Position numbers and translations under genes: made by a program
Shown: piece by piece, positions 1 through 34,791 of the stretch
How the letters are laid out: every line of letters begins with the position of its first letter
Numbering within the stretch: position 1 is the stretch's first letter
DNA from: Cochliopodium minus
Taxonomy: Eukaryota > Discosea > Himatismenida > Cochliopodiidae
Length of the DNA: 34,791 bases
Direction of reading: 5' to 3'
NCBI GenBank assembly: GCA_024220525.1
Contig: JAMYWO010000051.1
Location: forward strand, 163,651 to 198,441
Notes under the pieces: model-generated
What the model was told of the DNA's origin: nothing
Database searches by the model: none
The model's input: the letters and a program-made list of their open reading frames with translations, nothing else

Positions 1-71
1 AAAATAAAAATAAAAATAAAAATAAAAATAAAAATAAAAATAAAAATAAAAATAAAAATAAAAATAAAAAT
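1..71. repeat. (AAAAAT)n array at left edge
   Basis: Perfect six-base AAAAAT array. Bases 1-69 are identical, in register, to 34723-34791 at the other end of the window. It lies inside the RapGAP intron that would span the two ends, so it is an intronic low-complexity tract and not a telomere. If the two copies are one, the circle is about 34,722 bp and this intron is about 240 bp. Confidence 0.95.
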
Positions 72-187
72 TAAAAAATATATTATTGAAATAATTTCAA
101 ATAACATCCAAATTAATCATTAAAAAATTTGTTTTAAAACAAAATAAAATCCAAAATCAAAAAATAAAAATAAAATAATTTTTGGAC

Positions 188-3100
188 CTGTTTCGTTCAC
201 GATACTAACGACCAAAGGGAGCTTGGAAGTGGGGTTGACAGTGATGAAGTTTTTGTGATCTTTCTGAGCAAAGTGTTGTATGTACGGAAGATTGGATTTG
301 AGAGGAACAATCTGTTATTCAAAATAAAATTAATTTAAATTTTAATATTTTTAAAAATATTTGAAGAATTTAAGTTTTAAATTTTAAATTTTAAATTTTT
401 TTTATCATTTTTTTTGTTTTTTTACTTGAGATTCAACCACATTTATAGTTTTCGAAGGTAAGACAGGGAACTTGGGGTTGTTGGGCTGTATCAAAAACTC
501 CAAGTTGACCTTTCTGACTTCTTCAATCTCCTCTGTTCAAAGTTAATTTTTTAAAAAATAGTTGAAAAAATAAAATAATAAAATGAAATAAAAATGAGTA
601 ATAAAATGAAAATAAAAAAATAAAATAAAAATTATAAATAAAAAAATAGAAAAATGAGAAGTAAAATGAAAATAAATGTGATATAATAAATTCTTTTTTA
701 CCTTCAACTTTGTTGACAGATATTATTTCTTCGGTCTTCTCTTTGGACAACCTGCTTCGTCTCATTGAGGGACTGTCTTGTTGGATTTTGTCTTTGAGAA
801 CGTTGTTTCGGCTGCTTTTCCTTTTGGTGGTTATTTCTTCGTTTGAACTGGTGTTGGGAGATTTGAGGGCAAGTTTTCTGGAACTTTTTCTCTTGATTGC
901 ATTGTCGGTACTTACGTCTTTTTAATAAAAAATAAAAAATAAAAATATTGAAAAATTAAAAAGTTATAATTAATTTTGTTCCATCATTGAAAAAATATTA
1001 AAAAATATAAAATTGAAAAATATTTTTGAAAAAAATAATTCAAAAAAAATAATTCAAAAAAAATAAATGAAATAAAAAAATAAAAAAATAAAAAAATAAA
1101 AAAATAAAAAAATAAAAAAATAAAAAAATAAAAAAATAAAAAAATAAAAAAAGTTATAAAAAGTTATAAAAAATGAAAGTAGAAAAATTTTTTTTCTACC
1201 ACCCAATTTTCTTGTGCTCCTCCTTTTAGTAGTAGTGTCTTCTATCTGAACTTTGGAAGAAGATAAAGACTCTTGGGATTTTTGATGCTGAAGATTCCTT
1301 CTGCTCCTTCTATTCTTTGGGGTGATCTCTTGCGTTTCCTTGTCAATCACCACTTTGGGCGAGGACAATCTTCTGACGTGTACTTTGGGACTAGCTTGGG
1401 TTTCGAATTTGGAGATTGATTGGACAGATGGAGCTAAAAAATCAAACAAAAGATAAAAATGAATTTGAAAATATATATTCTCAAATTTTAAAATAAAAAT
1501 CATTTGAAAACAAAAGAAAAAATGAACTTTAAATAAATAACAAAAAAATAAAATAAAAAATAAAAATTTAATTTAAACGGAGAAATGAATTTTATAAATA
1601 AATTGTAAAAAATAAAATTCAATAAATTTCTTTACCACTCATTTTTCTCCCACTTCTCCTTTTATCGATAAGAACTTGATCAGTTTTCGTGTCTTGGGAA
1701 AGAGGCTCACGATCCAATGTAGTTTTGTGTTCAGGAGTAGATTTCCTTTCGGATATTTTAACCCGAGGACTAATGGGTGTTTCATGTGGTGATACTTCTT
1801 GTTTCTGAGCTCCGGATTTCTCATTTAGCTCAGGGGTTGAATCTTTCAGTCCTTTGGTTAGATGATCGTTGGATTTTTCAATGAAGATCATATCGTTAGA
1901 AGATAACAACAAAGATGAACCCTCATTTTGAACGCTAATTTTAACAGAGCAAATAAAAAAAATATGTACTAGAAAAAAATTTATTGTTATGAAATATTAA
2001 ACAGATTAAATAATTTTAAATTTAAATAAAAAATGTTGAATAAAAATTAGAAAAATTATTAAATGTTACATTTCTGTTTTCTCGAAATTATTTCCAACAG
2101 GTTCCTTTGAAAGACTTTCAGTGGGTGTTTTTACTTCAAGTTTCACAGAATCGATTTCTTCACTCGAGACGTCGCCACTAGAAATCTCGAAAGAGTAGTC
2201 CTCGAGATCAGAATCTTTGTCAAATTTCTTGGAAACTTTGACGGGCTTGGAAAGATGTTCTTTCATAGATTCTATGAACTCCTCTTTGGGAGTTTCGACT
2301 GGCTGAACTGTTGTCTCGCTTTTGGAAGCAAAGTTGACACTCCTTTCTTCTTCGAGTACTTCTTCCTCATTGGATAGAATTTCTTTGTTTAAAGGAACAT
2401 TTTGATCATTCACTTGTTCAAGCGCCACTTTTTGAAAGAGACTTTCTTGGGTGACTTCCTCGTGAGAAGCATGAGGTCCTAATTTAGCAGAAACAACTTT
2501 TGTATCTTCTTCTTCTTTTTTAGAATCTTCTTCAGAAGAGTAGATCTCAAGATTTTGCAAAGTGGAATTGGTTTCGACTTTGTCAGACTCCTTGAAGAGC
2601 TGGAGTGAAGTGTGAACAACGTTAGGCTCGTCCAAAATCTCCTCCTCATAAGACTCTCCCTCATCTTCATCCTCATCCTCCTCTTCTTCTTCACTGTACT
2701 CCCCCTCCTCAGTCTCATCCATCTTGTCCAACTCTGTGAAGTATCTCGGCGTCCCATCCAAAGAATCATAATCCACATTCTCGATCTCCAAGTTTCTGAA
2801 GCTAGCTCTTCTGACAGGAGACTCTACGGGCTCAGGCTTTTCTTCCAATATCTTCTGCTTCTTCTCCTCGATTTCCTGCTGAAAGCTCAACAATATCCTT
2901 TCTTCCTTGTCGATCCTCTGCTCCCTCTCCTGCCTCCTCTTTAACCTCTGTTCTTCTTTCTCCTTGTTTTTCTGCAGCCAGACCCTTTCTTCTTCTTCCA
3001 CCTTTTTCCTCATTTCATCCAATCTCTTTTCTCTTTCTGATTTCACATTATCATTCTGATATGATAACACGGTATCCACCATATCGACCTTTTGCTTTGA

Positions 3101-4035
3101 GGTAAGTGCCTTGGACCACCAATACTCTATCTTTTTGTCCCCTTTCTCTTGTTGCAAGAGGAATGAGGATGTATTGTTGATGGGAGAGGATTTCTCGTCC
3201 AAGTTTTCTTTGAATTCTATGATCGACTTCAATTTCTTTATTCTCCTCAATAATTGTCTTTCTTTCAGCTTCTGTCCTTCAATTTCTAAATTATATAATA
3301 TATTATATTGATTAAATAGATTCTTGGGATGATTTGAAATGCATATACTTGGATATATTTAAAATAATTTCCAATTTTTTGATTACCTGCAAGTAATGTT
3401 TGTATTTGTAAATCAAAATCAGATTTTTGATTCTTCAGCTCGTATAATGTTTTCCTTTCTATCTCATCTGATTTCAATTTTGCTTCTGCGATTTCCAATT
3501 TGAGATCTCTCAGCTGCTTCTGATTCTCTTTGTTCAATCTCATCTCCAACTCAAGGAATTTGGACTTCTCATTCCTGATCTCTTCTCCTTTTTGTTTATT
3601 TGTCAATTTTATATCTCTATCTTTTTCTTTTATGGTTTCTCTCAATCTATAAATTGATATTTGGTTTATTTTATTTGAGATATGATTAAATAATTTTTAC
3701 GTATGAATTATTTTTTCTTGTTCTATCAATTTCTGTTTATAATCCCTCAGATCATCTGTCCATATCTTTTCCATTGCCAATTCCTTCTCCCTATATTCAT
3801 TTTTGTATTTATTTTCGAGTGCCATCATCTCCTTCTTATGATCAATCCTCTCCTGAGTGATTTTGCGAACAAGGGATTTAGATTTTCTATCCTCCTCGAG
3901 ATATTTGGCTTGGAATTCATTCATGTTATTCTTCAAATGATTGATCTGTTCTCTATGTCTCAATTTTCTATCTTCATCAAGCTCTCTTTCCTTTAATTTC
4001 TGGATTTCATGAAATGATATTTCTGTGTCGAGCAT
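188..4035 (-). CDS. Coiled-coil RapGAP, N-terminal part (exons 1-8)
   Basis: Eight exons, read right to left: 4035-3701, 3646-3387, 3285-2070, 1934-1636, 1433-1200, 917-702, 532-426, 311-188. All splice phases agree. Start is the first ATG at 4035 (MLDTEISFHEIQ). Residues 1 to about 330 are a charged coiled coil. About 330-600 are Glu/Ser-rich and disordered. About 690-860 carry repeated basic motifs (KRRSGRK, KRRSTRK, KRKSSRK). The last two exons begin a Rap/Ran-GAP domain (YIQHFAQKDHKNF, then PLVVSIVNET), matching the family's Y-x-HF-x-GKEHxNF and LxLSV strands. Rap GAPs stimulate GTP hydrolysis on Rap-type GTPases that control adhesion and actin. The domain is cut at a phase-1 donor (GAAACAG/GTCCAA) and continues in the gene at the right edge. 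With exons 9-11 the protein would be 1221 residues. Confidence 0.88.
1024..1153. repeat. AAAAAAT heptamer array in RapGAP intron 5
   Basis: About ten copies of an A-rich seven-base unit lie between the exons at 1200-1433 and 702-917. On the gene's sense strand the tract is T-rich, as in most introns here. No coding signal. Confidence 0.8.
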
Positions 4036-4196
4036 AATTGCCAACAAAAAGCTTTCTCTTTTTTTTTTTATTATCTTTTTTATATTGAAAAAATGTAATG
4101 CAATTGATTGAATGAGGAAAATAAGTTTGTGAGATATTTTTATTTCAATTTGAAACTTTTATTGAACGTTTTTTTTTTGCATGAATATAATTAATA

Positions 4197-4512
4197 TTAT
4201 AATTTGATTTCTTCTTCAAGATTGATCCTTTCTATTTTGAGGTCTTTTTGTTTGATTCTTTCATTGTGAGTTCGTAGATGTAAAACAAATCCTTTATTCG
4301 ATGATCTTTTGTTTTAAAATTTAATTTTTATAAAAGTGGAAAATAATCGAATATTACAAGTCTCTCCAGGTGTTGAAGTATTTGATAGAAGGTTGTTTTT
4401 CCATTTCCTCCAACAAGAATTTGCCTTTTATTAAAAAATAAAGATATTATCAGAAAAAGAAAGTGTAGTCATAAAATGAAAGGGATTTACAATGTTTTCT
4501 TTGTTGATTCAT
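4197..4512 (-). CDS. Small ORF of 65 aa, or last exons of the LRR gene
   Basis: Three exons 4512-4491, 4424-4358 and 4305-4197 join in frame to 65 residues, starting MNQQRKHCKFLLEEMEK and ending with a charged helix (IKQKDLKIERINLEEEIKL). Family not recognised. Its ATG overlaps the last base of the TAA of the upstream LRR gene (TAATG). An alternative GTGAAG donor near 4522 would splice the LRR gene (PVEI/S) directly into the 4424 exon, also in frame. These exons may therefore be an alternative C-terminus of the LRR protein and not a separate gene. The stop lies 161 bp before the RapGAP start on the same strand. The exon chain is well supported; its ownership is not. Confidence 0.5.
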
Positions 4513-7444: not shown

Positions 7445-7475
<31 letters not shown>

Positions 7476-8606: not shown

Positions 8607-8715
8607 ATAAAAATACCATTTTTAAAAGAAATTAACCAATAATAGTTTAATTAGTATTAGTGTCAAAAAAAATGAATTAAAAAGAAATATCAAAATTTTA
8701 TTATTTTTTTTTAAA

Positions 8716-11708
8716 TTAATTTAAATGTTCGGGTTTTTTCGTGCTTGTGTTGGATTTTTGGAGCAGGAGAAGTTCCTGTGTGGCTAGTTGAGAAGATAAC
8801 TCAATTTTCTCTAGTTGTTTGTTGAGAGATTCCTCGAGATGCTTAAATTTGTTCATTTTCAATTGAATCTTTTTGATTTGCAAATCAATGAGCTCGCCCA
8901 CAAGCTTGTGGATGTTTTGATCTTGTTCATTGGAAAGACTGACAGATCTAGACAAAGCAACATCAAGGGTTCTGTGGACAATGTCGTTTTGATGATAACT
9001 GCCATTGTTGCTGTTGTTATTGATGCCATTGTTGTTGTTGTCAATATTATTGTTGTTATTTTCGATAATAGAACTTCCGTTATGAGAAGGGGAAGGGTTG
9101 AGATGAAGGAACCTATTCAAATAGGAGAGAACGGTGTTGGTTTGTTTGATGCCATCCACTTGTTTCTGGTTGGCGGTTTTTATGAAAGAGTTGCTAAGCT
9201 GATCCTCAAGATAAGGATCCTCAATAGGCAATCTCAAAAAGTGAATGAGACATTGCTTCTTAGTTTTCCCGTTGCCAACAATAGCGGCGACTTTCTCCCA
9301 ATCCTCCCCGTACTTCTCAATGGAACTAAGGAGACGCAAAGTCTCTTGCTCTGTCCAAAAAGTGTGGTGCTTTTGAGTCAAACTCTTCTGGGTAAAGTGG
9401 TTGGGCTTCACACTCGGAGGGAACTTGCCTTCGTTAAAACAATTGGTGCAAAGCTTGAGTGTCTCCAAACCAGTAACCAAACACTGATAGTAAAAGTGGG
9501 CACTTTCGCTGTTGCAATAAGAGCAGAGCAATGACGGGATCTCGATTTCAGGTGGGAAAAAGGGGGATTGGAACACATTGTTGCTGAGTTGTAAATTAGG
9601 AAGGGGAGGCTTGTACTCTTCAATGGGGGGCATGACAGAGACGTTCTTTTGTTGCAAAGAATCTCCAGTAGTTGTTTTTTGGTTGTTGTTTATAGAAGGG
9701 TACTTTGGTTTGACGGGGAGACTGTGAGTCAACATTTCTGGGGTTGCTCGATAGTTGATGAGCCCCCAGTGTTCCAAGAAGGTGTGCACTTTTAACACTG
9801 AGCACACGTCTCCCACTAAATTTCTTCTTACTGCTGTTTGTGTGAGATATTGAGAAGGGTTCTGCTTGTATGCTTCCATCATGAAATCTCTGTATTCTAT
9901 GTATCTGTTTCATTGGAAATTTGAAAAAAAAAATTCAAATAAAAGATTATAAAATCATAAAATAAATAATTTTATAAATAATAAATCATTTCTAAAAAAA
10001 AAAGCTACAGTTTTGGAGTTTTTAAAGGAGAAGACCCATCAAAAAATTCAGGGAGAGACTCCTGCTCAATGGAATGGACCTGATTGATGTCAAACCAACT
10101 GCAATGCTCAGGCAAGAAAAAAGTGTTCAAGTTGGTTTGTACGATATGGTGCTGCTGAGGATTGGAATTATTTTGCTGATGGTAAAACGACAGTTGCTGT
10201 TGTTGATAGTTCTGATACTGTTGGTATTGAATGTATTGAGGGGTAAAGTTTTGGGAATACATGTTTTCGTAAGTCATGAGGTTGGGCATCTCTTCATTGT
10301 TGTTGTTATTGTTAATTTTATTTTTGAGATCGTTGTTGTTGTTAAGGTTCATGTATGTCTCTTTGCGCGGACGACCTACCTTCTTCTTTGGTCTTCCTCT
10401 TTTGGCGGTCTTTTCGGAGTTTTCAGAGTTTTCAGAGTTTTCGTCCATTAGGTCGGTGGCAACGTGGTTCTCTTCTAGCTTCTTCTTTTTGTGATCGGAT
10501 CCCTCCTTATTGGATGGGCTCGCCTCTCTCGAAAATACTCTCTTTTTGTTCTCTGACAACTTATTCACTTCATCTATCTCTTCATCTTCTATAAAATTGA
10601 TCATTAACGATTTTATTGAATGATGAAAAAAGTTTAATAAAGAATTATATTTATTAAATAGATCTAAGTTGATAAAAGATTATGAATAGAATTTTTTTCA
10701 ATTACCAATCAAATAGTCTTCTTCATTCATCCATTCATTGTATTTATCTAGATCAACGAGCCATCTGGATCCCATTATTTTGATTTGATTGGGATCCAAT
10801 TGCAATGGCTCCAATTTTCCTTCAACTTGATTATTTGGAAGCCAAGTATCGTAACTATCAGGAAAATACCACCAATGAACCAATGTTTTGTTACCTTGCA
10901 CCTCAACACTTCTCAAATAATCCTCATTATCATTATCTTGTGAATCTTTCTTTTGCATCACTATATAATGTGTTGCTTCTGATATATTTAACGTTACTTT
11001 TGCATTATGATTCACTGCTATTTGTGACAATTCTGATATCACAGAATTTGTTAATTTAGGAGAAAAATATATTACTGGATACTTCAAAAAACCGTTTTTC
11101 TGGATTAAAAAGGATTATGTTAGTTTGGAAGATGCAAATAATAAGAGAAATTGAATTTATTTTTAATCCAATATATCGAATATATTATATGCCACATCGA
11201 AATACTTGACATATCCAGAATATGGATTATATAAGAAGGAATAAAATTATTATTAATTATTGGTGAAAGACAACTATTAAATTATAATTAATGCTCTTAT
11301 AATTTCTTGTTGATTTTTTACCTCTAATTGTTCTTTCACTTCCTTCAACATTGGGAGAATTTCATTTTCATTATTCTCTTCATCGAATGGAAATATATCC
11401 CATTTCATTTTGGTTTTGTATTCATAACTTGTTGATATGATTGTATAAAGAGGTCCATCTTCTCCATAATCATTAAAAAAAGATATTGGGAGTTTTGTTA
11501 ATGTTTTTGTTTGATTTGAATTTATTCCCAAAATATCTTCTTGAATGAGAAGCAATTGATAGACAAATGTTGAAAGATTTTGTTCTGATTCTGTGCATAT
11601 ATTATTTTTTTTTAATTTATTACTTATTTGAGAAAATTTAGAGATTGTTGTTTTCTTTTTAAAATATCTCAAATCTATCAATGCTTTTTTTGGGTTTGAT
11701 GTCTCCAT
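8716..11708 (-). CDS. SWI/SNF subunit SWI3/SMARCC with AT-hooks
   Basis: Four exons: 11708-11322, 11099-10706, 10588-10009, 9904-8716; 849 aa, phases consistent. The N-terminal SMARCC module (LSTFVYQLLLIQEDILG, LTKLPISFF) leads into the BRCT/chromo-like part with the hallmark VHWWYFPDSYDTWLP and KYNEWMNEEDY. Then comes an acidic linker with tandem AT-hooks near 326-340 (RGRPKKKVGRPRK), Asn and Gln runs, and the SWIRM domain about 425-510 (CSWFDINQVHSIE, RRNLVGDVCSVLKVHTFLE). A ZZ-type zinc finger lies near 580-616 (CSYC...CTNC), SANT near 633-690 (FWTEQETLRLLSSIEKYGED), and a C-terminal coiled coil near 786-840. It should be the scaffold of a BAF/RSC-type nucleosome remodeller in the nucleus. 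The AT-hooks would add minor-groove DNA binding. Confidence 0.95.
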
Positions 11709-12268
11709 TTTATTTTATATACTGTTGAAGATTTTTCTAATTTATATTTTTTAAAAAAAAAAATAACGATTTTTGAATCAAAAAAATCAAAAAAAACTTG
11801 AGAATAGATGAAAATAATTTTCTTGTGATATTTGGATTATTTTTTACCTTGAAAAAAAATGGACCTCAATAAAATTTTATTTTTATTTTTTATTTTATAA
11901 TATCTTTCATTTGAAAGTATATAAAAATAGAATCTCACAATAATAATAGGTATCATTTATGAGTGATCAATGTTGAAAGGAATAAAATTTTATTGATAAA
12001 AAAAATATTCAAACTCAAAATTATATTATTTTTTTCTTTATATATGTTATTTTGATTCAAAAACATACAACCCAAATTGAATACAAATTTAAACCACATC
12101 TCATTCAATTTTTTTTGTTATATCAAGAAAGTGAAATGAAATAACAAATTTAAAAATATAAAATAGAAAAAAAAAATAAAAAAAAAAAGCAATTATATTT
12201 GAATTAAAATACCAAAATATATTCAAAAATACCCCAATACAATCATTTTGGTATATTTATCATTTTGG
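11709..12268. promoter_or_regulatory. Divergent intergenic region between SWI3 and LRR-PP2C
   Basis: 560 bp of very AT-rich sequence between two outward-facing start codons. No coding exon, RNA gene or recognisable element was seen. It must hold both promoters. Confidence 0.4.
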
Positions 12269-15200
12269 ATGGGAAATACGGTTGAATATCATAAGTCTAA
12301 ATTATTGGTGAGAAATGAAAAAATAGATTTGAAAAAGATTCAAAGAGCGATCTCGAATAATGGAAAAGAAATTAAAAAAATAGAATTCAATTGCAATAAA
12401 ATAGATGAGATCTCTCCAAAATGGCTCCATCACTTGAATAACCTCTCCAATATCAAAATTACGAATAATTTCCTCACAAATTTGTCTGATGATTTTGCAT
12501 TATTAAATTCTCTCGTAAAATTGGATCTGAGCAACAATACATTTGAAAAGATCCCAAAATCAATATTTTTTTTATCATCATTGAAAATATTGAAAATGAA
12601 TAGGAATAAATTATCTTCAATTTTGGACGATGAAACCTTCACCATCAAAAAATCCAAATTGAACAAATTGAGCTTAAAGGGGAATTCAATAGAGGAAATT
12701 GGTATCAAAATAGGAGATTTAAAGGAATTGAAGATAATAAAGCTCAACCATAATAAATTGATTGATATCTCAAATTTGAAACTCATCAAATCATTGACCG
12801 ATTTAAATGTTTCCCATAATAATATTCAAGATAGTAAGCAACCGCTAATTTATTATTTTTATTCTTATTATCTTTGATACATTAAAGTATCTATGATCCT
12901 CTCTATGAAAAAATTGCATAAATTGACCGCTCATAATAATCACATCAAACAATTTAATTTCATCAAAAAATCAAAGTATTCGAATCTCGAATATTTGGAT
13001 TTGGGGAATAATGGGATAACATTGATCGACAAAAAAATATTCATCTGTATCATAAATCTCAAAGAATTGATTCTCAATTCAAACGAAATAGAAAATGTGC
13101 CACAGAATATCAGTCACTTGAAGTTGCTCGAAAAATTAGATTTGGTAAAAAATATTTTTATTTTTTTCCATTTATTATCTGGAGATCCTGAAAATAAATT
13201 AATTTTCCTGAACTATTTGAATTTATTTCCCCTTTGGATATTTTAAATATTATTTATTTTTCATTGACGTTTTTCAGTCGAACAACAAGCTACGAGATAT
13301 GCCTCACTCGATGATGCAATTGAAAAATTTGAAGATTTTATTGATTAATCACAATCAATTAATTGAAATTCCCAACATCAGCATCCTCACATCAATGGAA
13401 AGATTGTCATTGTCTTATAATCCTAACATGGTTTTCAAAGGACCTCTCATTCACTATTTCCCGGAAAGTTTAATTACACTTGATTTGCAAGGTATGAAGA
13501 TTTCTGTTTTCTCAAAGGGGATCGAAAAGTTCACTAGACTAGAAACATTGTACCTTGGCTGTAATCAAATCAGCAAGCTCTCCAAAAAGTTATCTTCTCT
13601 CCCCAAGTTGAAGTTACTTGAGTGTGAGTTCAACAACTTGGACGAAATACCTGAGAGTATCTACCAAAAGCTCAAGTACAGGAATTTGAATGGTTATTTT
13701 GACGAGAATCCCCTTCTTTCTCAAACTCAACAAGCCAAATACTTGATCAACTTGGATAGGCTTCACCATTATAAGAAGGAACATATAAAAGATAGATCTC
13801 CCAAAATCAAAGATAAGCTTGTTTCAAAGGTGAAGAAGAGTGGTACTCTTTTGGAGATTGACAACAAGGTTATTGTAGTACCTGGAGGGTTTGAGATTGA
13901 AAACAAACTAGAGCCTAAACTTCCCTTGTTGGAAAGAAAAACTGAGATTCATTTAGACAAAGAATCTAATAGATTCAAGGGTTTGTACGATGGTCCCATG
14001 AGGAGCCATAGACAACGTGGTGTACTTTTTTTTTTCTATGTGTTTATTGGGTTTAAATTTATTGAACACTCTCTTTTAATAGACTGAAACTAAGGCAACC
14101 AAAGTTACCAACAAAAACTCTGGTGCACAAATATTCGAGAACGCTAACAAGTTTAACGAAATTCTGGCTGACAACGAAACATCTGAAAGTTTTTTCGACT
14201 TTTCTGTTGAACTCAACGTCTCTAAGGAGCAGGAAATAAACATAATAGTCCCCAATATCAAAATGAGCAGCGAAAGCTCTAATTTTATGGAAGAATTTGA
14301 AAAAGACAAGAATGGAAGCAACCCAAGGTTTCTCAACTTTGTTTCTTCTGTGGGGATCTCCATACCTCGTGTGGGACTAAAAACAATCAAGGTTGGTTCT
14401 TCTACTTTGAGCCACGATAATGTCAAAGATGAGTTTATTTCCGTTTGTCTTCTCAAAAATATGATTTGTGTCAGTATATTTGACGGTCATGGAGGGGAGC
14501 ATGTTTCCAAGTATCTGAACACTTTTTTGCCCACACTCATTCTTAAAAACTTTGAATCAGAGGGTGTATCTCCTAAAAAAGATCCTCAGTTTGTCATTCA
14601 GTTCCTTCAAAAGATTTTCATCTTCACCAATAACAGCATCAAGAACAACTTGGGTGTACTCGCTTCCACTTGTGGTTCTACTTGTGCTATCGTTTTAATA
14701 GTCGAGGACACCATCTATTGCTCTAATTTGGGGAACACTAAGATTCTTTTCAGTACAGGAGAAGTTTCAAAATTTCATAATTTGGATGATTATGATGAAT
14801 ACATGAGATGTATTAACAAAAACAGTCATGTTTATGGCAACAGGCTTAATGGTGCTTTGAGTGTAACAAGATCTTTTGGTGATTTCGAAATTCCTGGTGT
14901 CATTTGTCTTCCACATATTTATCATTCTCTGTTTCCCTTTAACAGGTACGATGATTCTGTCAGATCTGATGATTTGATCTTCAAATCGGAAGATTCTATG
15001 AAGGGAGATTCCAACAAGTCTGAGGAACATTCCATTGAGACCAAATACAATGTCTATTCTTCTCTCAAGCCCAAGTCTGAAGATTTCGATCAAAAATCTG
15101 AAGAGTATCTCAAAGAAAAAAAGGATCGCATCCAATTTATTATTTTATCTTCCAATGGGTAATTTTTTGTTTTTTGATAATAAAATTTTATTTTATTTGG

Positions 15201-23223: not shown

Positions 23224-24197
23224 ATGAATCAAGAAAATTTTCTATTAATAAAAATATATCTCACTGGTCCAAAATTGAGTGGCAAAACCTGCTTGATGTT
23301 GAGATTTGTTGATGATACCTATTCTGAATCCTTTATTTCGATGGTACCATTCGAATAATAATTCGTTTGAAAATACTTTATTAAATGAAAGATTGGAATA
23401 GATTTCAAGATAAAAACGATCAATATATTCGGGAAGAAAGTTAAATTACAAATTTGGGATGAAGTGAAATGTTCAACTTTAAATTTATTTAAAATTTATT
23501 TTATATTTTCATTAAAGGATGGTAAGTGTGTTTGAATTCATCTAATTCATCTTAAAATTTTTTGTGGGTAGTATTCATGAGATTCAGACCATCAAATTGT
23601 ACTCCCTTCAGGGGAAGTCATGGTATAATGATGATGTTTGACTTGACTGACAAAGAATCAATAAAAAAAATAGGAGAGTTCATAGACCAAATAGACAGAT
23701 ATTGTCCAGAATCAGTGAAGAGGATGCTCATTGGATGTAAATGTGACCTTTTAAAAAACAGAGCAGTGAGTAATGAAGAGATTGAAGAGAAATGTAGAGA
23801 AATAGGTTATCAATACATCGAAACTAGTTCTAAAATAAAACATAATGTCGATTTTTGTTTTTATTTCATGGCTTCCATGGTCATGTCATCCTTTGATGAC
23901 AAAGTTAAAGAAAAATTGAACAACTACATTTTGCCAAGATACAATTTCTTTTCTCCTTCAGCTTGGGATTCGTCTAATCACAAATTTTATTCTTCAAATT
24001 TCAAAAGAAATGTTTTTTCTTTTTTGCTTTCTTTGAAATTTTTAAACATCAACATTCCCAAATTCGTTTTGTTCAAAATCATCAAACAAAACTTTTCAGC
24101 AAACGATACAAACTATAGTCTTGATTTGGATATCTTCAAGGAAAATGTTTTTGAAGGAGGAGTTTCAAAAGATGAAAAGAAATGTGTTTTGAATTAA
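23224..24197 (+). CDS. Degenerate Rab/Ras-like GTPase with CAAX end
   Basis: Exons 23224-23343, 23392-23463, a 4-base microexon 23518-23521 (GATG) and 23572-24197; 273 aa. The P-loop is present (GPKLSGKT, 15-22), and [10 protein letters not shown] plus KLQIWD are Rab-like, as is [17 protein letters not shown]. Key nucleotide residues are changed: the switch I Thr before IGIDF is Met, the WDTAGQE motif reads WDEDVFM, and NKxD reads CKCD, while ETSSK (G5) is kept. After the G domain a 100-residue extension ends KKCVLN, a possible CAAX prenylation box. A Rab-type membrane role with poor GTP hydrolysis or binding is inferred. The microexon is required for frame; with it, the distance from WD to FRP equals that in true Rabs. 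A longer exon ending at 23527 would also keep frame but uses a weaker donor. Confidence 0.78.
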
Positions 24198-24466
24198 ATT
24201 TATTTTTAAATATAATTTTTAAAGATTTAAGGAATGAAAATTCTATCCCTATCAGAATATCGAATTTTGAATTATTTTTAGAATCATGTAATTGAAACAA
24301 GGATATTGACTGAAAAAAAAAAAAAAATATATATATTTCTAATTCAAATCTCATCCAAAAATTAAATCACTCATATAATCATCCCTCCTTCCAAACGATT
24401 TTATTTTTTTGAAAAGTAAAAAGAAAATTCTATTTTTTAAAATCNAAACAAGCTTTTCTTTTTCGA
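24198..24466. other. Spacer with an ambiguous base
   Basis: AT-rich spacer holding one undetermined base (n at 24445). No feature seen; sequence quality here is suspect. Confidence 0.6.
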
Positions 24467-25542
24467 ATGTTTCGAACAACACAAGTGTTTCTTCAAACGT
24501 CAAAGGTAAAAAATTTTGATTTGATTTTTTTTTTTTTCAATCTTTTTTTTTCAATCTTTTTTTTAAAATCTTTTTAAATCTTTTTTTTTCATTATTATTT
24601 TTTTAATCTTTATATTTTTATTTTTAACTCTTTATAAACTCTGAACTTTAATTTTCCTTCTTAGATGATGAAATTGAAGATATTGAATTTGACTGGAAGA
24701 AGAATTTACCCTTGCTTGGATGCCATCTGGCAACCTTGAGTACTTGGATCACGGAATCGAAATTTCAAAGGCATTGAAACAAATCGTAGTGAGACAAGTA
24801 TTGATTTGTTGGCAAAGAAAATGGTCAAGTTAGGTAACACCAAGAAAAAATCAAAAAAGTTTTTAAAGAATAAATTGATGTTAAACATCACAATATCTTT
24901 AAAAACATTCAAATGATTTTCCAAAAATTTTTGGGATAATTAATTCAAAAGTTTATTGAAATTTCATTGAACATTTTCACAACGATTGATACATAACGAG
25001 AAATTATTTGCATTTTTTTAATTCGATTTGAAAATAACTAATTGTTATTTGGTTATACTCAAATATATTATTTTTATTTTTTATCTTTTTTTTATTTTTT
25101 TATCATAAATTTTATGTACATAAATCCTTTAAACTAATTTTCTCTTTTCCTTTTCTTTATTCTTCAAAGGACCATTCAGATATGCGATCATCAATCATTC
25201 CCTGATTTGGAATTTCTCACAAATCATGGCACACTCATCTCGCTTTGCCAGTTCTTGATCGACATCTTCCGCAAACCCAACAAAACCTCCATCCCCATCG
25301 TCATCGCTGCCCTCAACAAATCCAAGAAGACTTATATCACTGTTGGTGTAACTCCTGTTGCTTCTGACAGTATTGACCGAGCTTCTACTTTCGGAAAGTG
25401 TTTCAAGAGAGCCGCTTTGAAAACCAACTCGGAGATCCAGAAGCATTTTTTCGATTCTTCTATCATCGAGGTGAGGGAGGATGATGTTCACAAGTTTCTT
25501 GAGTTCCTTCATTTGGATCTCACTGAGGAGAAAGATTTATAA
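24467..25542 (+). pseudogene. Unrecognised gene, interrupted frames (decayed or mis-sequenced)
   Basis: Coding signal runs through three blocks. A short exon is at about 24467-24505 (MFRTTQVFLQTSK, or another frame). Block 24665-24832 is protein-like in turn in all three frames (DEIEDIEFDWKKN; PSGNLEYLDHGIEISKALKQ; then FVGKENGQV). A good last exon at 25170-25542 encodes 123 residues (ICDHQSFPDLEFLTNHGTLI, HKFLEFLHLDLTEEKDL). The final splice (phase 2, donor at 24833, acceptor 25169) fits only the FVGKENGQV frame. At least two frame changes lie in the middle block. An n at 24445 sits just upstream, so indel errors are as likely as decay. No family recognised. Confidence 0.45.
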
Positions 25543-25768
25543 GAGAATCTTTTCTTCTCCTTTTCAAAAATAAAACATTAATTTAAAAAAAAAATATATT
25601 AAATTAGTTTTTGATTGAGACCATTTTAATTCTTAACTTGGAAGATGATTTATGTCAAGATTAAAAGAAAATTTGCGAATCACCAGACATTGTAAGTGAT
25701 ATTTTATCGTGTTAAAAATATGCTTTGATTCAAGAAATAAAAAAAAATTTGAGAAGAATTCAAGAACC

Positions 25769-27480
25769 ATGGATAATGATGACATCAATAATTTGATTAA
25801 TGAGTACGAGAGAACGGTGGAAGGATATTATGAGGATGTATATTCTATATATTGCATTAAATGTGAGGATCATTCATTATGCAATAGAGGACAAAGGTAA
25901 AAATCCTTTAAACTCTGCATATAAACAGATAATTTCATGTATAATGCTTGCCATCTTTATAATACAAAAATAATTGAAATGATATTTAATTTTGAAAAAT
26001 AATCAATTATCATATTGAATAAAGTTTATATAATCAATTTATGGAGATCTTCCAATTAAATTATTTTGAGGATTAAATCAATTTCTGAAAAAATATTTTT
26101 TATTGAAAAATAAAATTTATTTTTTGTTAAATTAAAATTTTTTTTTTTCCTTTAGTGTATTGTTGGTGAGCGATCAAAAGGTAAAGTTGTTCAGCACTGA
26201 TTTTGTCACGAGGTTCTTGGGCGAGAAGGATGTGACGTACAAGTTCCACTTGTGCAATTGCATGATAAGAGACACAATTTGTAGGAACTGTGGAACGTAG
26301 AATAAAATAAAAAATAAAAAATAAAAATAAAAAAAATAAAAACAAAAAAAATAAAAACAAAATAAAAATAAAAATAAAAAATAAAAATAAAAAAAATAAA
26401 AACAAAAAATAAAAATAAAAACAAAAAAATAAAAATTGAAAACTAAAAAAATAAAAAATAAAAAAATAAAAAATAAAAAATAAAAATAAAAATTAATTAT
26501 AAACTAAAATAGTTTGTCAAATAATAAAAAAAAAGATTAATTGATTTTCCTTCTTAAATTAATTTGACAATATACTCAGATAATTCGAAATTTATTAGTG
26601 TAAAATAAAATCAATTTTTATTTTAGTGTTGTTGGATATCATGTTGTAAAAGGATGTAGGGGTTGTTTGGCCTCAGAAAATAACGGTATAAATAATTAAT
26701 AAAATAAAGGCAAATAAAAAATAATTAATATTTATTTAAATAAATTAATAATTAATTAAATAAAATAAAAATAAAATAAAAATAAAAATATTAATGATTA
26801 AAAGGACACTATTTCATGTTCAACAATGTGACTGGGAAGAAGAGATTCAATGAAGATGGGAAGGTGATGAAATGGAACCACTTGTCGCTTGAAAATGAGG
26901 ATGCTTTGGATGAATCTCTGTTTCTGGAAGAAATTCCTGACAATCTTTTTTGTAAATTTTTATTAATTTTTTATATTTAATTTTTTATATTTATTAATTT
27001 TTTTTTAAAGGTATAATTTGTTCAAATTTAATGGAAAGTCCAATATTAACAAAATGTGGGCACTCTTTTTGTAGTAAATGAATCTTTTTAAAATTTATTT
27101 TACTTGTCATTTTTAATTTTTATTTTTTATTAATCATTTTATTTTTCATTTTTTATTTTTTATTTTTATTTTGTTCACCAATTTTTATTTAATTAGAAAA
27201 ATGTACCACCAGACAAATAGACACCAAAAAAAATTGCCCTTTGTGTAGGACCGAATTAGATCATGACGACATGAAAGTAGATGTAGAGGTGGAAAAAATT
27301 ATTTTGGGCCTCAAACTTCACTGCAAATTCTCCAAGAACGAGACAGATGCTTGTGATTCTGTCATCACCTATGGAGAAAAGAAACAACATGAAGATTCTT
27401 GCTTACACAAAAAGATTGAAATAAAAATTAAGAATAAAAAAAGAAAATCTAAAAAAAAAAATATTAGAAAGAAAAAATAA
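25769..27480 (+). CDS. FAM72 - RING - TRAF-type zinc finger fusion
   Basis: Six exons: 25769-25896, 26156-26296, 26627-26685, 26805-26951, 27011-27073, 27197-27480; 273 aa, phases consistent. Residues about 25-115 match the FAM72 family: CIKC, VLLVSDQKVKLFSTD, FHLCNCMIRDTICRNCG, VVGYHVVKGCRGCL, NNGHYFMFN, with the paired cysteines of its zinc fold. After a 45-residue linker comes a full C3HC4 RING: Cys159, 162, 174, His176, Cys179, 182, 193, 196 (TKCGHSFCKKC, NCPLC). A TRAF-type zinc finger follows (LHCKF...C...H...C) and then a Lys/Arg-rich tail, likely nuclear. RING plus TRAF-type fingers are typical of E3 ubiquitin ligases. Animal FAM72A binds the uracil glycosylase UNG2 and promotes its loss. 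A one-chain E3 with FAM72 as substrate receptor is inferred. Confidence 0.9.
26297..26500 (+). repeat. A-rich AAAAAT/AAAAAC array in FAM72 intron 2
   Basis: About 200 bp of imperfect AAAAAT with AAAAAC variants inside a 330-bp intron. Unlike most introns in this window it is A-rich, not T-rich, on the sense strand. Confidence 0.85.
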
Positions 27481-27794
27481 AAATAAATAATTTAAAATTT
27501 AATTTATAATTTTATTTATAATAAAATGTCAATTCTTTATTCAATTGGAAAGAATAAATATTTTATATTGTTTTCTTTCATTAGAAAATTTCTTTTTCCA
27601 ATTTGTATCTAACCAAAAATAGATAATCTTGTTGTTGAAAATTGTTGAAACTTCTCCACAACTTGAAGGTATGCCGCGAACAGTTGTAGTTTGTAAATTA
27701 GCCCATTTCTCTCTTTTTTGTGACTAAGAAAATTTTGTCTTTTTATTTTTAAATAAAAATAAAAAATAAAAATTAAAAATTAAAAATAAAAATA

Positions 27795-28021
27795 GAAATG
27801 AAAAAAAAATGAACATCATCGTCTCACTGGGACCTTTTTTCTTTACTTGATGGATCCATTTTTGATCTGATTTCTTCCCCACTCAACCAATCTCATTTGT
27901 TGCACAATATCATTCAAGCTAATTTAGTGATATCACATCACCCAATAAAAAGATTGTTATCACCCAATAAAAAGATAAAATATGATTTTATACAACTTAC
28001 ATTTTCAAAAAATTATATTTA
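27795..28021 (+). pseudogene. NIF3-like relic
   Basis: An open stretch with no start of its own reads SHWDLFSLLDGSIF and then IIQANLVISHHPIKRLL, ending at a TAA near 28021. This aligns with the NIF3/DUF34 N-terminus, where WDNVGLLVG is followed by an alpha-helix and the metal-site motif LIISHHP. About 30 residues separate the two motifs, somewhat fewer than in the family. The stretch breaks down right after SHHP, at a 22-base direct duplication, and nothing NIF3-like follows. I read it as a decayed host gene copy. It could be the surviving exon of a gene whose other exons I missed. Confidence 0.42.
27937..27976. repeat. 18-base direct repeat, 22-base period
   Basis: ATCACCCAATAAAAAGAT occurs twice, at 27937-27954 and 27959-27976. 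It looks like a short tandem duplication inside the NIF3-like relic. Confidence 0.9.
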
Positions 28022-28580
28022 AAAGTTAAGGAAAATCATCTTAAAAAAAAAAGATAATTCTCAATCACTAATCTTTAAATAAAGATTTTTGAAGTCACCA
28101 AGATAATAAAGAAAGAAAGAAATTATAATGTAAACAAGAATACTAATAAAATATCAATTTCAAAAAAATATTTAATACATGGACACAATGTGATTACAAA
28201 AGACTTGAAGAAAAAGTACTCAAAGAAGACACAATCAAGAAGACACAAAAGTTGACGAAAAAAAACTTCGCTAAGTAAAGAAAATACAACACAAAAGTTA
28301 AAAAATAATGTTGAAAATTTTGAAGAAATGTATTTAAATTTAATATTTTAAAAAAGATATTCCACTTTGTGGATGTTTTAGATCAAAAAAAACCTCAAAA
28401 AAGTTTTAAATGCATTTGAAAATTGATATTTAATTCAATAAAAAATTAAAAAATTGATGTTCTTTCTTCAATTGGAGATAAGAGAAAAAAATAAAGATAA
28501 TTAAATTAATTAAAAAAAAATATTCAACCACTTTCAAAAAAATGAAAATTTTTTTGAAAAGAAAGAATTTTTCATGGAGT
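28022..28580. other. AT-rich region without clear genes
   Basis: About 560 bp with no open frame of note, no array and no RNA gene recognised. Confidence 0.55.
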
Positions 28581-28582
28581 AA

Positions 28583-28824
28583 TTTCATTTGCCAAAAATT
28601 TCAAATGTGAGGGATATATCCTTTTTGGAGTTTTTCCAACTTCAAATCAAAAATAAAGGCATTTCGCAACAATGGATGGTATATGCTCAGCAATAATATT
28701 AAATTTAAATTAATAATTTTCCTAAATTTTTATTCATTAGAAAAATGTGAGAGAAATTACATTTGAACCAAAACAATTCTTGAATGAGGTTTTTAATTTT
28801 TATTTAAAAATTATTACAAATTAA
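28583..28824 (+). pseudogene. Possible two-exon gene tail or relic
   Basis: An open stretch 28583-28678 (PKISNVRDISFLEFFQ, KGISQQWM) followed by a GTATAT donor joins in frame to 28741-28824 (KNVREITFEPKQFLNE), ending in TAA. No start codon or upstream exon was found. NVRDISF and NVREITF look like two copies of one repeat unit. The end overlaps the convergent Sel1 gene's stop by 11 bases. Weak evidence. Confidence 0.25.
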
Positions 28825-30103
28825 TATCCAGCTTCATCTTCACTTTTTCATCGTAATTTGCAACTGTATAAGTGTTGTCTCTTTGATGAAAAGTGATGAG
28901 AAACTTGATGATGTTGATCATGATTCCCTTCACAAGAAAAGAAGAGCATTGTTCGTCCTTTGAAGAGTTTCTGTGTTTGGAGATCAAAAGAAGAGTGAGA
29001 ACGTTCTTGTACAAAGGGAAAAAAGAATCCCAATGAATATTGTTTTCTGTGCTCCACTCTACCTCTCCATCACTCAACATTTTCTGTATTTTGTTATAAT
29101 AGATTTCATAGTAATCGTTTTCATCGTTATAGTCATGATCCCAATCATTTTCCTCCAAATAAAGTTTTGAAAAACAAAGGTAGAAAAACAATTTGTGAGG
29201 ATTTTTTGGGACAAACTCTCCCTTGTCGTAAATTTCGATCAATCTCTCACTGCACTTGTTTCTCGAACTCAACTCATCACTCTCATAACGACCATCCTTC
29301 TCCACTGTAAATTCAACAGCATCAGAAAAGACTTGAATCGCTTTCTCAACATTCTTTTCAGTACCTTCTCCATTCAAATAATAATCTCCCAAATGAAGCG
29401 CACACATCACATTTTTCTGTTTGTAGCCTCTTTCTGCATACAAAAAGGTTTTTTTGGGATTTCTTTCGATGTAACCATTTTCTTTATAAATCTTGAAGAG
29501 ATGATAGGTGCTTCTTTCACATCCCAAATCAGATGCTCCCTCATAAAATCCTATCGCTTTCAAGATATTTTCTTGTTGGGGATGCACGTGTTGATAATGA
29601 TATCCAAGCGATCTCAATGCATCTATGTTTCCCATCTCTGCACTCTTCAGTCCATATTTCAAATTATTCTCCAGATCAAAGTCTTGGGTGTGTGGATCAA
29701 ACAACATGAAATAACAATATGAGACAATTTCTTTTTTCTCTTCTTTATGCTCGTTTAATTGGATATATCTCCAAAAGGAATCAAAATATTTTTCTTTGTT
29801 GTATTCAAATCCCCAATTGCATCGAGAGGTGAATCCCAATCCTATTTCATTTCCTTCATTTGCCAATTCCATCACCATCTCCTTTGCTCCCTCGATATAT
29901 TCTGTGTAATTACTTTTATTGAATAAATGAAAGATCTTCAAAATCTTTTGATCTCTTTCTTTTTCTTTCTCCTCTTCTATCTCTTCTCCATACACCATCT
30001 TTTCAGTGATTTCTTCCTTCATTCTCTTTGAATCTCTTTCATTTTCTTTTTTGGAAGATTCTATCTCCACATCCAATTCTCTTTTCAAGTTATTCTCTTT
30101 CAT
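28814..30103 (-). CDS. Sel1-like repeat protein
   Basis: A single exon of 429 aa starting MKENNLKRELDVEIES, one of few intronless genes here. The first 55 residues are a charged helix rich in Lys/Glu. Sel1-type alpha-helical repeats follow: DALRSLGYHYQHVHP, KAIGFYEGASDLGCERSTYH, KTFLYAERGYKQKNVMCALH, GDYYLNGEGTEKNVEKAIQ. Sel1 repeats are TPR-like scaffolds for protein complexes, often in ER-associated degradation or signalling. No signal peptide or membrane segment is seen, so it is probably cytosolic or nuclear. It is divergent from the ankyrin gene 224 bp away. Confidence 0.85.
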   Translation of the reverse strand: MKENNLKRELDVEIESSKKENERDSKRMKEEITEKMVYGEEIEEEKEKERDQKILKIFHLFNKSNYTEYIEGAKEMVMELANEGNEIGLGFTSRCNWGFEYNKEKYFDSFWRYIQLNEHKEEKKEIVSYCYFMLFDPHTQDFDLENNLKYGLKSAEMGNIDALRSLGYHYQHVHPQQENILKAIGFYEGASDLGCERSTYHLFKIYKENGYIERNPKKTFLYAERGYKQKNVMCALHLGDYYLNGEGTEKNVEKAIQVFSDAVEFTVEKDGRYESDELSSRNKCSERLIEIYDKGEFVPKNPHKLFFYLCFSKLYLEENDWDHDYNDENDYYEIYYNKIQKMLSDGEVEWSTENNIHWDSFFPLYKNVLTLLLISKHRNSSKDEQCSSFLVKGIMINIIKFLITFHQRDNTYTVANYDEKVKMKLDINL

Positions 30104-30327
30104 TCCTTTTTTTTAAATGTTTATAAATGTTGAATAAAAATTTAATTTTATTATTCAATAATTTATCGATAATATTGGATATATATTTAATCTTTAATCA
30201 TTTTTTAACAAGAAACAAAGTGATTTGTATTTGATAGAGTATTAAGGTTTAATATTGATATCCACAATTCCTTTTTGATAAGTTCTTTCCATTATATTTA
30301 CTTCTTGAGAGAAATTAAAAAATTGAA
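30104..30327. promoter_or_regulatory. Divergent intergenic region, Sel1 and ankyrin genes
   Basis: 224 bp between outward-facing starts. AT-rich, no specific element recognised. A shared promoter is inferred from position only. Confidence 0.35.
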
Positions 30328-32892
30328 ATGCAAATTAACAAGAATAATCTTTACTTTATATCAAGCTATAGGAATCATTTGATCGAAAATCAAGGATATA
30401 CGGTTGGTAAATTAAATGAAAGCACCATAGAAAATAATTAAAAAATTGACCAATCAAAGGAAGAATAATGATTCATATAACAACAACATCATTAAAGATC
30501 AAATTTTAAAATTAAACATGTAGGAATATTCAACGAAGGAGATTTTATATTGGGAGGGATAGATGATTTGAAAGATGTTAAAGAGCTGATGGAGACAAAA
30601 AGGGAAGCAATGATCAAAACAAACAAGGAAAATGATTCATCTATCTTCTATTGCATGGCATTGAACAAAAATCTGGAAATAATAAAATATCTGATAGAAG
30701 AAGCGAAAATCAACATGTATTGCACAAACAAAAAAGGATTGACACCAATCCACTTTGCATTTTCGAACAACAAGCTGGAAATAGTGAAGTATCTGGTGGA
30801 AGAAAGAAAATTCGACATAAACATGAAAAGAGGGAACGAAATGAGTCCATTTCACATAGCTTGTGCTAAAAACAAGGAACTGGACGTTATAAAGTATTTG
30901 GTCGAAACAGCCAACTTGAAAAAGTTCGAGATAGTCAAGTTTGCGAGTAATACATTGGAGATAATAAAGTACATCTCTTCAAAGGAGATGGGAGGAGATC
31001 TGAAGTTCAAAAACCAAGAAGGAAACACGTTCCTTCATTTCGTGTGCGAGACGAACACGCTCGAAGTGGTAAGGTACTTGGTGGAAGTGGGAAAGTGCGA
31101 CGCAAAGGCGAAGAACAAAAATGGGTGCACTCCTTTTCACATCGCATGTGTGAGCAACAAAAACTTGGACGTGGTGAAGTATCTTGTCGAAAAGAAAAAG
31201 TGCAATGTCACCACGAAGAATGTGGATGGTTTAAATCCTTTACAAATGGCGTGCATTTCGAACAAGAATGAGGATATCATCAGGTACTTGGTAGAGGAAA
31301 GAAATTGCGATTTGAACGTGAGAAATAACAAGAAGAAAGAGTCTGCTATCTTGCTTTGTCTGAGGAACGGGTGTAACTTTGATCGGATCAAGTTTCTGGT
31401 GCAAATGAAAGCAGATGTGAATTCGAACAACATTGATGGGAAGGGTGTTACGGATTTGGTACTTCTTAGCGGGAATTATTCGAAAGCTCAGCAACAAGAA
31501 ATGATCAAATTCTTGGTGGGGGAGATGAAGTGCAAAATCATATTCAGCCAGTTTGACGTCAATACGACCTTCTTGAAAGTTTTTTATTTCAACAATGATG
31601 TGGCTTTGATGAGATACCTGATGGAAGAGTCTAATTGTGAGAAGAGCATTTCCATTGTCAACTACTTCAAGAGAAACAAGAACTTGGAGATCATCAAGTA
31701 CCTCGTGGAGGAAGCGAAATGTAGTTTGGACAAGGAAGATTTTGAAGGCTTTCTCCCTCTACAACTGGCTGTCTCTTTCAACAAGAACTTGGAGATCATC
31801 AAGTATTTGATCGAGAAAATGAATCTCGACTCCAAAAAATTGTCCGCTCTCAGACTAGACCGCATGGCCTGTTCTAACAAAAATTTGGAGGTCCTAAAGT
31901 ACCTTCTCTATGATCTCAAGCTCCCACTGATCAAAGAAGACAAGGCCAACCCTACCTCACATCTTTACCACGCGTGCAGGAGCAACAACAATGTGGCGAT
32001 GATGAAGTTTCTCATCGAGACTCTGGGCTGCGAAAAAAACTTTCGGACTGAATTTGGTTTTCCTCCGCTTTACTTTTCCCTCATGAACACCCGAAACACC
32101 ACCGTTTTCAAATACTTGGTTGCATCCAAGTGCAAGGTTGAGAATAAACACATTCGTTACGAGGATGGCAAAACCATTCTTGATCTTTATCTTTTAGGAT
32201 GCCCTGAAATCGATTTGTTCAAAATCAAGTATTTATTCGACGCAAAGTGTACCGTCACTAACCAGAATCTCAAAAGTGTGAAGAGTTCTACCATTTATAA
32301 ATTTTTTGTTTCAGCCTATAATGCTGGCATCAATAAAGCTAAGGTCAGATCTCTCATTTTGATTTTTCTTTCTAACAAAGTGGACTGGAACATTACTGAC
32401 AATTATAGCCAAGACTTAAAGTCCAAACTCTTTAAAGATATTCCTAAATTCAAAAAAGTATTCGAAAACGTCAAAAACGACGATTTGTGGAACCCCAATG
32501 AGCATCTTTACTTTTCTGATGACATTCAAAATTCTATTCTAACTTATTTAATATGTGTAAAAGTTCAACTGAGCAAGAACTTGCCTTTTAAAATCTCCAA
32601 ATACGTTAATTTTATGATTTTTAATTACTTTGTTTCTTCTACCCTTTTCCAACAAAATTCTGTTGACAAATTTTCAATAGTTCAGCAAGTCTTACATTTG
32701 AAGAACCAACAACTTGAAGAAAAAGACAACATGTTGAATCAAAATAAAAGAAAAATCGATCAAATCATCCAAGAAAAGGATAACGAGAAGAAAATTTTGA
32801 CAGAAGAAATTCTTCTTCTCAAAAAAGAAATAAATGAAAAAGATGAAAAGATAAAGCTTTTGGAAATTCTTTTAAAAGAAAAAGATAAATAA
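30328..32892 (+). CDS. Ankyrin-repeat protein with C-terminal coiled coil
   Basis: Two exons: 30328-30406 (MQINKNNLYFISSYRNHLIE) and 30524-32892; 815 aa. The upstream exon was chosen because the long frame has no ATG before its GGIDDLKDV start, and a TGTAG acceptor at 30521-30523 restores phase to GYTVGIFNEGDF. About 14-16 ankyrin-type units follow with a strong local consensus, N-K-x-LEIIKYLVEE (for example GLTPIHFAFSNNKLEIVKYL and GCTPFHIACVSNKNLDVVKY). The family mediates protein binding. Residues about 735-815 are a Lys/Glu coiled coil. Codon use is GC-richer in the middle repeats than at the ends. No enzymatic domain is seen. The next gene starts only 44 bp downstream. Confidence 0.88.
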
Positions 32893-32936
32893 AATTATTT
32901 ATAAAATGTAAAAAAAAAAAAAAAATAAAAAAAAAA

Positions 32937-33287
32937 ATGGAAAATAAAAAAGTTAAATTACTTTTACCACAACAACAAAAAGAAGAGACCGAGATTCTTA
33001 AAATAATGTTTCAAATCAACAAAATGATGGAAGTGATCAACTTTATGATAAGCTTTACCAAAGAGAATAGCGAGATGGGTAATTGCAATTATTTTTTTTA
33101 TTGGCAAATTTAAACTTTTGAAAAAATAAAAGAATGCAAGTTGATCGACCAAGAAATAGAGAATATGGAGAAATGGATCACAGAATGCAAATTAATGTTA
33201 CAATCCACACAAAAGATGGAAGAGAAAGTATTGATGGAGTTGTTGGTGATGTGTAGTCAAATATTATTGTCAGAAAAGAAAATTTAA
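32937..33287 (+). CDS. Small coiled-coil protein, 98 aa
   Basis: Two exons: 32937-33078 and 33133-33287, joined in phase 1 across a 54-bp intron. The product is all helical and Met/Glu/Lys-rich (MENKKVKLLLPQQQKEE, KLIDQEIENMEKWITECK), ending SEKKI. Family not recognised; subunits of coiled-coil assemblies such as tethers or kinetochore parts have this size and look. Its stop is 87 bp from the convergent RapGAP stop, and its start is 44 bp after the ankyrin stop. Confidence 0.7.
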
Positions 33288-33374
33288 TTAAAATTTTCAA
33301 AAATTTTTTATTTTATTACATTTTTAAATTTTAATTTTTACATTAAATTTTCTTTTCCATCAAAATTTTCTCTT

Positions 33375-34669
33375 CTATTTCTTCTTGTTGTTGGCAATGG
33401 AGTTGATGTTCTTCAAAAACATGGTCCTCATCTGCTGATCCTTGGAGTTCTTGATGGGATCGAACTGATCAAAAGCGACGCAACAACGCAAACAACAGCT
33501 CAAAATGAGAGAACGCAAGTGTTTGGAACTAACAGGACCAGAAGGGACAGAAGGAAAGTCATCGGGGAGCTTGAAACCTTTCTTGAGAGCAACCGAAACT
33601 TTATAAAAACTCTCCGAGCTAGTAGTTTTGTCATAGTCGGGAGCAACGACGAAGTACAGAGTGTTGGAGACGGATTGGGGCATCAAGGAAGGGTCGAAGG
33701 GCAGGGAGCCGTCTACGAAGACGATCACGCAGACGTCGTTGGAGATGTGTTTGGCTTTGCTGTGGCCCTCGTTGGTGGGAGGTGGCATCATGCTCACTAC
33801 GTGGTAAACTACTTCTGATTCTCCAAATATTCCGTGCTGTAAAGAATATGAAAAAAAATTTAATATAAAAAATAAAAAATAAAAAATAAAAAATAAAAAA
33901 TAAAAAATAAAAAATAAAAAATAAAAAATAAAAAATAAAAATTAAAAAATAAAAATCAAAAATCAAAAATAAACAAAAAATAAAAATTAAAAAATAAAAA
34001 ATAAATAAAAATTTTATTTTAAAAGAATAAATTCCAAAGAATTACCTTTAGGTAAATCGTTCTTTCTCCGCTGATGTTTTGGGGACTGATATCAAGCCCT
34101 CCACTGTAACCTTTGTGAGTGAGGAGCTTGACAGAGTCTCCTAACAATGAGAGGAAGTGGGTGTACTCTTTAGTTGTCTTGTAGTCTTTCTCGAACAAAT
34201 CTTTCAAGTTTGATCCATCAGGATAGTACAAGACCCCTGATAAAAAAAAAAGATTAATGAAAAAATAAAAATTAATATTAAAAAATCAAAAAAAGCACAA
34301 AAATGAACAAAAAAAAATAAAGATCAAAGAAAAATGATAAATGAAAATAATAAAAATTTTAAAAAAAAAAATATTGAGAAAAAATAAAAATTTATCAACA
34401 AAAAAAGAAATTTATTCTTAAAAATTAAAATGATTTTTTTTTTTAACCCATTTTGAATCTTTGATTATCCAAACCAAGAGTAAGCTCCATTTGGGAAATT
34501 TCCTTGACAATTTCCCCAAAGCTCGAGATTCTCTTGATCCAAGACTTTGAAGAGATTTTAGGGAACATCTCCTTCAATAATTGGGAGCCCGACTTGAACT
34601 TCTTGCCTGAGACGGGGTTGATTTTCTCGTCTGTTTTGGTTGGGGTCATAATGAGTATTCTTTGCGAAT
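33375..34669 (-). CDS. RapGAP, C-terminal part (exons 9-11)
   Basis: Exons 34669-34448, 34236-34046 and 33836-33375. The first begins at a CAG acceptor with two bases (AT) that complete a phase-1 codon. It opens with SQRILIMTPTKTDEK and runs LKEMFPKIS, then QRFKMGVLYYPDGS, EYTHFLSLLG and KGYSGGLDI, then HGIFGESEVVYHVVSMMP and KHISNDVCVIVFVDG. This is the core of a Rap/Ran-GAP domain. The Asn of HISNDV (residue 1101 in the joined protein) is the catalytic Asn thumb, so it should be active. A short tail ends NNKKK and TAG. No start codon fits upstream of the acceptor, because the beginning of the domain lies at the left edge of the window (188-532). Confidence 0.92.
33849..34016. repeat. (AAAAAAT)n/(AAAAAT)n array in RapGAP intron 10
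   Basis: About 165 bp of A-rich six- and seven-base units between exons at 33836 and 34046. T-rich on the sense strand. Confidence 0.9.
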
Positions 34670-34722
34670 CTGTTGATAAAAAAAGTAATGTCAAAAAACA
34701 AAAAATGAAAAATGAAAAATAA

Positions 34723-34791
34723 AAAATAAAAATAAAAATAAAAATAAAAATAAAAATAAAAATAAAAATAAAAATAAAAATAAAAATAAAA
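34723..34791. repeat. (AAAAAT)n array at right edge
   Basis: A 69-base array identical, in register, to bases 1-69. It lies in the RapGAP intron just upstream (sense strand) of the acceptor at 34670-34672. See the left-edge repeat. Confidence 0.95.

Follow-up and report, generated by a model that had tools for sequence, protein, structure and literature searches.

Rap1GAP, represented by the structures PDB 1srq and 3brw, which we take to be those of the human protein, is the closest described counterpart of the gene considered here. The arrangement in which this gene is found has two described counterparts, scaffolds misjoined or mis-ordered at short tandem repeats, which are recognised by non-continuous features flanking a join, and extrachromosomal circular DNA, recognised by a gapless closed sequence and by ends that overlap in unique sequence. 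According to passages of PMC9326850, contig boundary effects, particularly with repeats, can misalign linking reads.

The window, by which we mean the whole 34,791-bp stretch of Cochliopodium minus DNA that was analysed, corresponds to positions 163651-198441 of scaffold C51 (198,441 bp in total), and its right edge coincides with the end of the scaffold record. It is less A/T-rich than Anaeramoeba ignava, for which PMC11550330 gives 80.65% A+T. The original prediction was that this stretch closes on itself, with one RapGAP gene split across its two ends. The protein obtained by joining the two parts aligns with Rap1GAP chain residues 16 to 298, across the join, whereas the right half alone aligns from chain residue 116; it differs from Rap1GAP by low identity and by a long N-terminal region preceding the domain, roughly 880-900 aa, that appears coiled-coil-like and charged by eye. 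The locus resembles mis-ordered scaffolds in having contig ends ~70 bp into low-complexity arrays, a one-N join and features cut on both sides of that join. It shows no unusual difference from such cases, the circular look arising from gene halves at both ends of one readable stretch. Its only likeness to extrachromosomal circular DNA is that the first and last 69 bases are alike, and it differs in that this likeness is simple repeat and in that the stretch is gapped and part of a scaffold.

RapGAP gene model and domain structure

When the right end of the window is placed before the left end, the exons at the two edges (Table 1) join into a model of 11 exons and 1221 aa that has no stop and consistent phases. 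The predicted gene coordinates, the phase-1 donor and the exon and residue counts were thus all reproduced, with the frame open throughout. The right-edge gene begins at 34669, after the acceptor CAACAG, and phase 1 is found on both sides of the join. The phase match was considered as strong evidence for the join and rejected, as phase 1 is the commonest phase, present at 6 of the 10 introns of the joined model. The exon 8 donor, GTCCAA, is atypical; the other nine donors of the model start GTAA, GTAG or GTTA.

Table 1. Positions, strands and supporting evidence for features of the window
Feature	Position	Strand	Evidence
AAAAAT array, left edge, right after the 10,983-N run	1..71	+	sequence
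Donor GTCCAA of the intron split over both window ends	182..187	-	exon model
RapGAP gene 5′ part, exons 1-8, 930 aa, ends within the dimerization domain	188..4035	-	exon model and Rap-GAP_dimer match
RapGAP exons 1-8	4035-3701, 3646-3387, 3285-2070, 1934-1636, 1433-1200, 917-702, 532-426, 311-188	-	exon model from sequence
Ras-family GTPase gene, contig 1 right end; putative start taken from the ORF list	23224..24197	+	PF00071, E 5.1e-21
Dispersed element, 83 bp, end of contig 1	24362..24444	+	three further copies on C86, 94-99% identical
Single N, scaffold join of contig 1 (1-24444) and contig 2 (24446-34791)	24445	.	N-run listing
CDC45 gene 3′ part, cut by the start of contig 2	24446..25542	+	PF02724
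RapGAP gene 3′ part, exons 9-11, 291 aa, rest of the dimerization domain and catalytic Rap_GAP	33375..34669	-	exon model and PF02145
RapGAP exons 9-11	34669-34448, 34236-34046, 33836-33375	-	exon model from sequence
AAAAAT array, right edge, end of the scaffold record	34722..34791	+	sequence

A Rap_GAP domain (PF02145) is recognised in the right half (112 bits, cut-off 27, E 3.3e-32, positions 8-172 of 185). The query stretch HISNDVCVIVF aligns there with HIGNDIVAVVF of Rap1GAP, and the catalytic asparagine of the HIxND stretch is therefore present in the sequence. The dimerization domain, Rap-GAP_dimer (PF21022), scores 15.2 bits with the left piece alone (positions 5-34) and 24.8 bits with a joined 139-aa piece (positions 5-84), a value below the curated cut-off of 27. 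With a joined 370-aa piece the match crosses the join and scores 22.7 bits against the same cut-off. The domain was listed in none of five shuffles, and the Pfam search listed no Rap-GAP_dimer match in the right half alone. Scored against Rap1GAP, the joined 370-aa piece reached 68.1 bits, compared with 61.1 for the right half alone, and 68.1 bits was reached by none of 500 shuffles, in which the last 45 residues of the left piece were shuffled, and by none of 95 decoy left pieces. The left piece alone scored 3.4 bits against Rap1GAP, a non-significant score (equalled or bettered in 12 of the 351 scored shuffles), and RapGAP was not found when this piece was compared with solved structures at E values up to 10. 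When residues 850-1221 of the joined protein were used as a protein-search query, none of 3086 candidates matched at E 0.001, and the search thus supplied no relative that contains both halves and could serve to test the join.

In the readable genome, the left end matched only itself and no close second copy of it was found; nor was there a close second copy of the right half, for which the best other match by E-value is 33% identical. Because the join completes the domain and close second copies of either half are lacking, it is probable that the two halves belong to one RapGAP gene. The join is also favoured by a paralog on C81, in which, as read by eye, a phase-1 intron lies within a few residues of the corresponding place. 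This part of the original prediction is thus supported, with a Rap-GAP_dimer score that lies below the cut-off.

Several other genes are recognisable in the window. A 780-aa ORF at 30550-32892 has many ankyrin repeats (Ank_2, E 1.2e-64), a SWIRM/Myb protein gene lies on the minus strand at 8716-9882, and a gene encoding leucine-rich repeats and PP2C lies on the plus strand at 12248-15162. The end of a myosin head is encoded on the plus strand at 18367-20571, with an IQ motif that scores slightly below its cut-off.

Arrays at the window ends

The arrays at the left and right ends of the window are 71 and 70 bp long, respectively, and direct comparison confirmed the identity of the first 69 bases with the last 69, as originally described. 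This identity is weak evidence for closure because a shared stretch of this kind is bound to arise whenever two ends both fall in the same period-6 array. It was rejected as proof of overlap, as (AAAAAT)11 by itself matches the genome 205 times (99 plus 106 positions, shifted matches counted); the starts of C81 and C88 are two places among the matches listed. The ends do not overlap in unique sequence, the 69-base overlap being AAAAAT array, and a contig that stops within such an array will share that array with many others. The predicted 34,722-bp circle and 240-bp intron presuppose that both arrays are one array, fully assembled.

Arrays of this kind were also evaluated at both ends of 20 scaffolds (C41-C50 and C52-C61), a sample of 40 ends of which 8 are N and 32 readable. 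Exact A/T arrays are present at 9 of the 32 readable ends, and 7 of these 9 are 67-75 bp long. Within C51, exact A/T arrays of at least 40 bp account for 958 of the 148,186 readable bases (0.65%). Contigs that stop ~70 bp into such an array bear a signature of assembly. Given that scaffold ends are often in A/T arrays and that such arrays are rare in C51, the assembly probably also broke at the left edge of the window. Two arrays inside the window, of 77 and 83 bp, were assembled through, which speaks against a strict 70-bp limit. In the same 20 scaffolds, N occurs at 8 of the 20 scaffold starts and at none of the 20 scaffold ends, an odd asymmetry.

Scaffold gaps and the join at 24445

Summed over all runs, C51 contains 50,255 N among its 198,441 bases. 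A run of N occupies C51:1-15542 at the scaffold start, and a 10,983-N run at C51:152668-163650 directly precedes the left edge of the window, with 163 kb of further scaffold on that side. The N-run listing also contains six single-N joins, one of which, at position 24445 and unmentioned in the original prediction, divides the window into contigs 1 and 2. With this N inside, the N run on the left and the scaffold end on the right, closure of the window on itself is not confirmed. Another one-N join, outside the window at C51:151336, is flanked by ORFs that do not share a frame and, by eye, seem unrelated. One-N joins in C51 may be unreliable. A single N is written by some scaffolders for an estimated gap of zero or less; its meaning is not explained in the passages of PMC6733440.

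Contig 1 ends 247 bases past the stop codon of the Ras-family GTPase gene, and only noncoding-looking sequence lies between this stop and the N. The terminal 83 bp belong to a dispersed element that runs on in its three C86 copies and does not do so here. The element begins CACTCATATAATCATCCCTCC. Of this 21-mer the readable genome contains four exact copies, one here and the other three on C86, where they appear by eye to be near gene starts. The dispersed element may be promoter-like or a small mobile element.

To the right of the N, contig 2 begins within a CDC45 gene, whose last exon (ORF 25138-25542) aligns with the profile PF02724 from position 507 to 623 of 624 (E 7.1e-24); a further, weak match covers positions 457-497 (E 0.13). 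Upstream, ~456 of the 624 profile positions are missing, equivalent to some 1.3 kb of coding sequence, and a profile search of the readable genome, with 67 of 95 candidates scored, gave no convincing match for this part. Besides the last exon, that search returned 13 matches under the cut-off, with E values from 0.025 to 7.1, of which 12 fall within profile positions 98-224 and one spans 116-458. The CDC45 part does not have one clean frame, with pieces of similarity present in different frames, and this scatter may result from unrecognised introns, sequencing errors near the contig end, or decay. When the terminal 444 bases of contig 1 were compared with the initial 2000 of contig 2, no match was found at E 1e-3. 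With features cut on both sides and no shared match, the N at 24445 is unlike a one-base gap in continuous sequence. The features that flank this join, a cut dispersed element on the left and the 3′ part of CDC45 on the right, are not continuous with each other.

Interpretation of the circular appearance

The apparent circle is likely to be an assembly artefact, in which a linear gene was broken at the array and two contigs were placed in the wrong order. Among the options offered in the original prediction was an assembly cycle through the repeat, and the reading preferred here is a close variant of it, differing in that the contigs are broken at the array and wrongly ordered. The intron between RapGAP exons 8 and 9 would hold a long AAAAAT array, and the assembler would have halted ~70 bp into this array from both sides, generating one contig with the 3′ part of the gene (24446-34791) and one with the 5′ part (1-24444). 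On the linear chromosome, 24446-34791 would then immediately precede 1-24444. We infer that the scaffolder reversed this contig order and wrote one N at 24445, which would place the RapGAP halves at the two ends of the stretch and so give it a circular look. The missing 5′ part of CDC45 would directly precede contig 2 and perhaps lie inside the 10,983-N run. The atypical GTCCAA donor, the Rap-GAP_dimer score of 24.8 of 27 bits and the lack of significance of the left piece alone against Rap1GAP count against the contig swap. The N at 24445 could also hide a longer stretch, with the contig order still right.

The left-hand gene may simply continue into the large N run to the left of the window. 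The halves could then derive from two different RapGAP genes, each cut in the same conserved intron, the 3′ half of the left gene lying in the N run that precedes the window and the 5′ half of the right gene lying beyond the scaffold end, an explanation that we consider unlikely. The RapGAP family in this genome is large, with 82 exon-level matches at E values up to 10 on 38 scaffolds by our own count, and C15, C97 and C105 each have well-separated matches that suggest two genes apiece. In the C81 paralog, the dimer-domain exon reads, in an alignment by eye of the sequence alone, as ending in phase 1 a few residues from the join position, so that this paralog seems to share both intron position and phase; contig 1, moreover, is already connected within the scaffold to sequence lying to its left. 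Set against this, close relatives of either half are absent from the readable genome, and the PF21022 search found only C81, in which the Rap_GAP matches lie ~1 kb on in the same contig. Two genes would also require that the assembly broke twice in one intron, with strand and motif the same as well.

It is very improbable that the stretch represents a true extrachromosomal circle, or a single unit of a collapsed tandem array, with a size of ~35 kb or more and with nuclear genes on it. Were the RapGAP join and the N join both correct, the two contigs would form a cycle, but the N join has features cut on both of its sides, at least ~1.3 kb of the CDC45 coding sequence would have to be absent there, and the window belongs to a 198-kb scaffold. 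The sequence is not a gapless closed one, and at 24445, where a circle would require its second link, there is a one-N join with a cut dispersed element on the left and a cut CDC45 gene on the right; the circle is therefore not supported. Marginally less probable still is the fully specified form, a real circle or tandem unit of ~36 kb or more with RapGAP, Ras-like, myosin-head, SWIRM-domain and PP2C genes of a protist-like nucleus, from which a part including most of CDC45 was lost at 24445.

Implications

Where contigs end in the same simple repeat, the scaffold that joins them across a one-base gap can look like a closed circle, and two quick checks for such false circles are to look for an N inside the stretch and for gene continuity across that N. 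Were the circle true, the presence of housekeeping and signalling genes on a circle would be notable. The RapGAP gene is an ordinary member of a family that is large in this genome.
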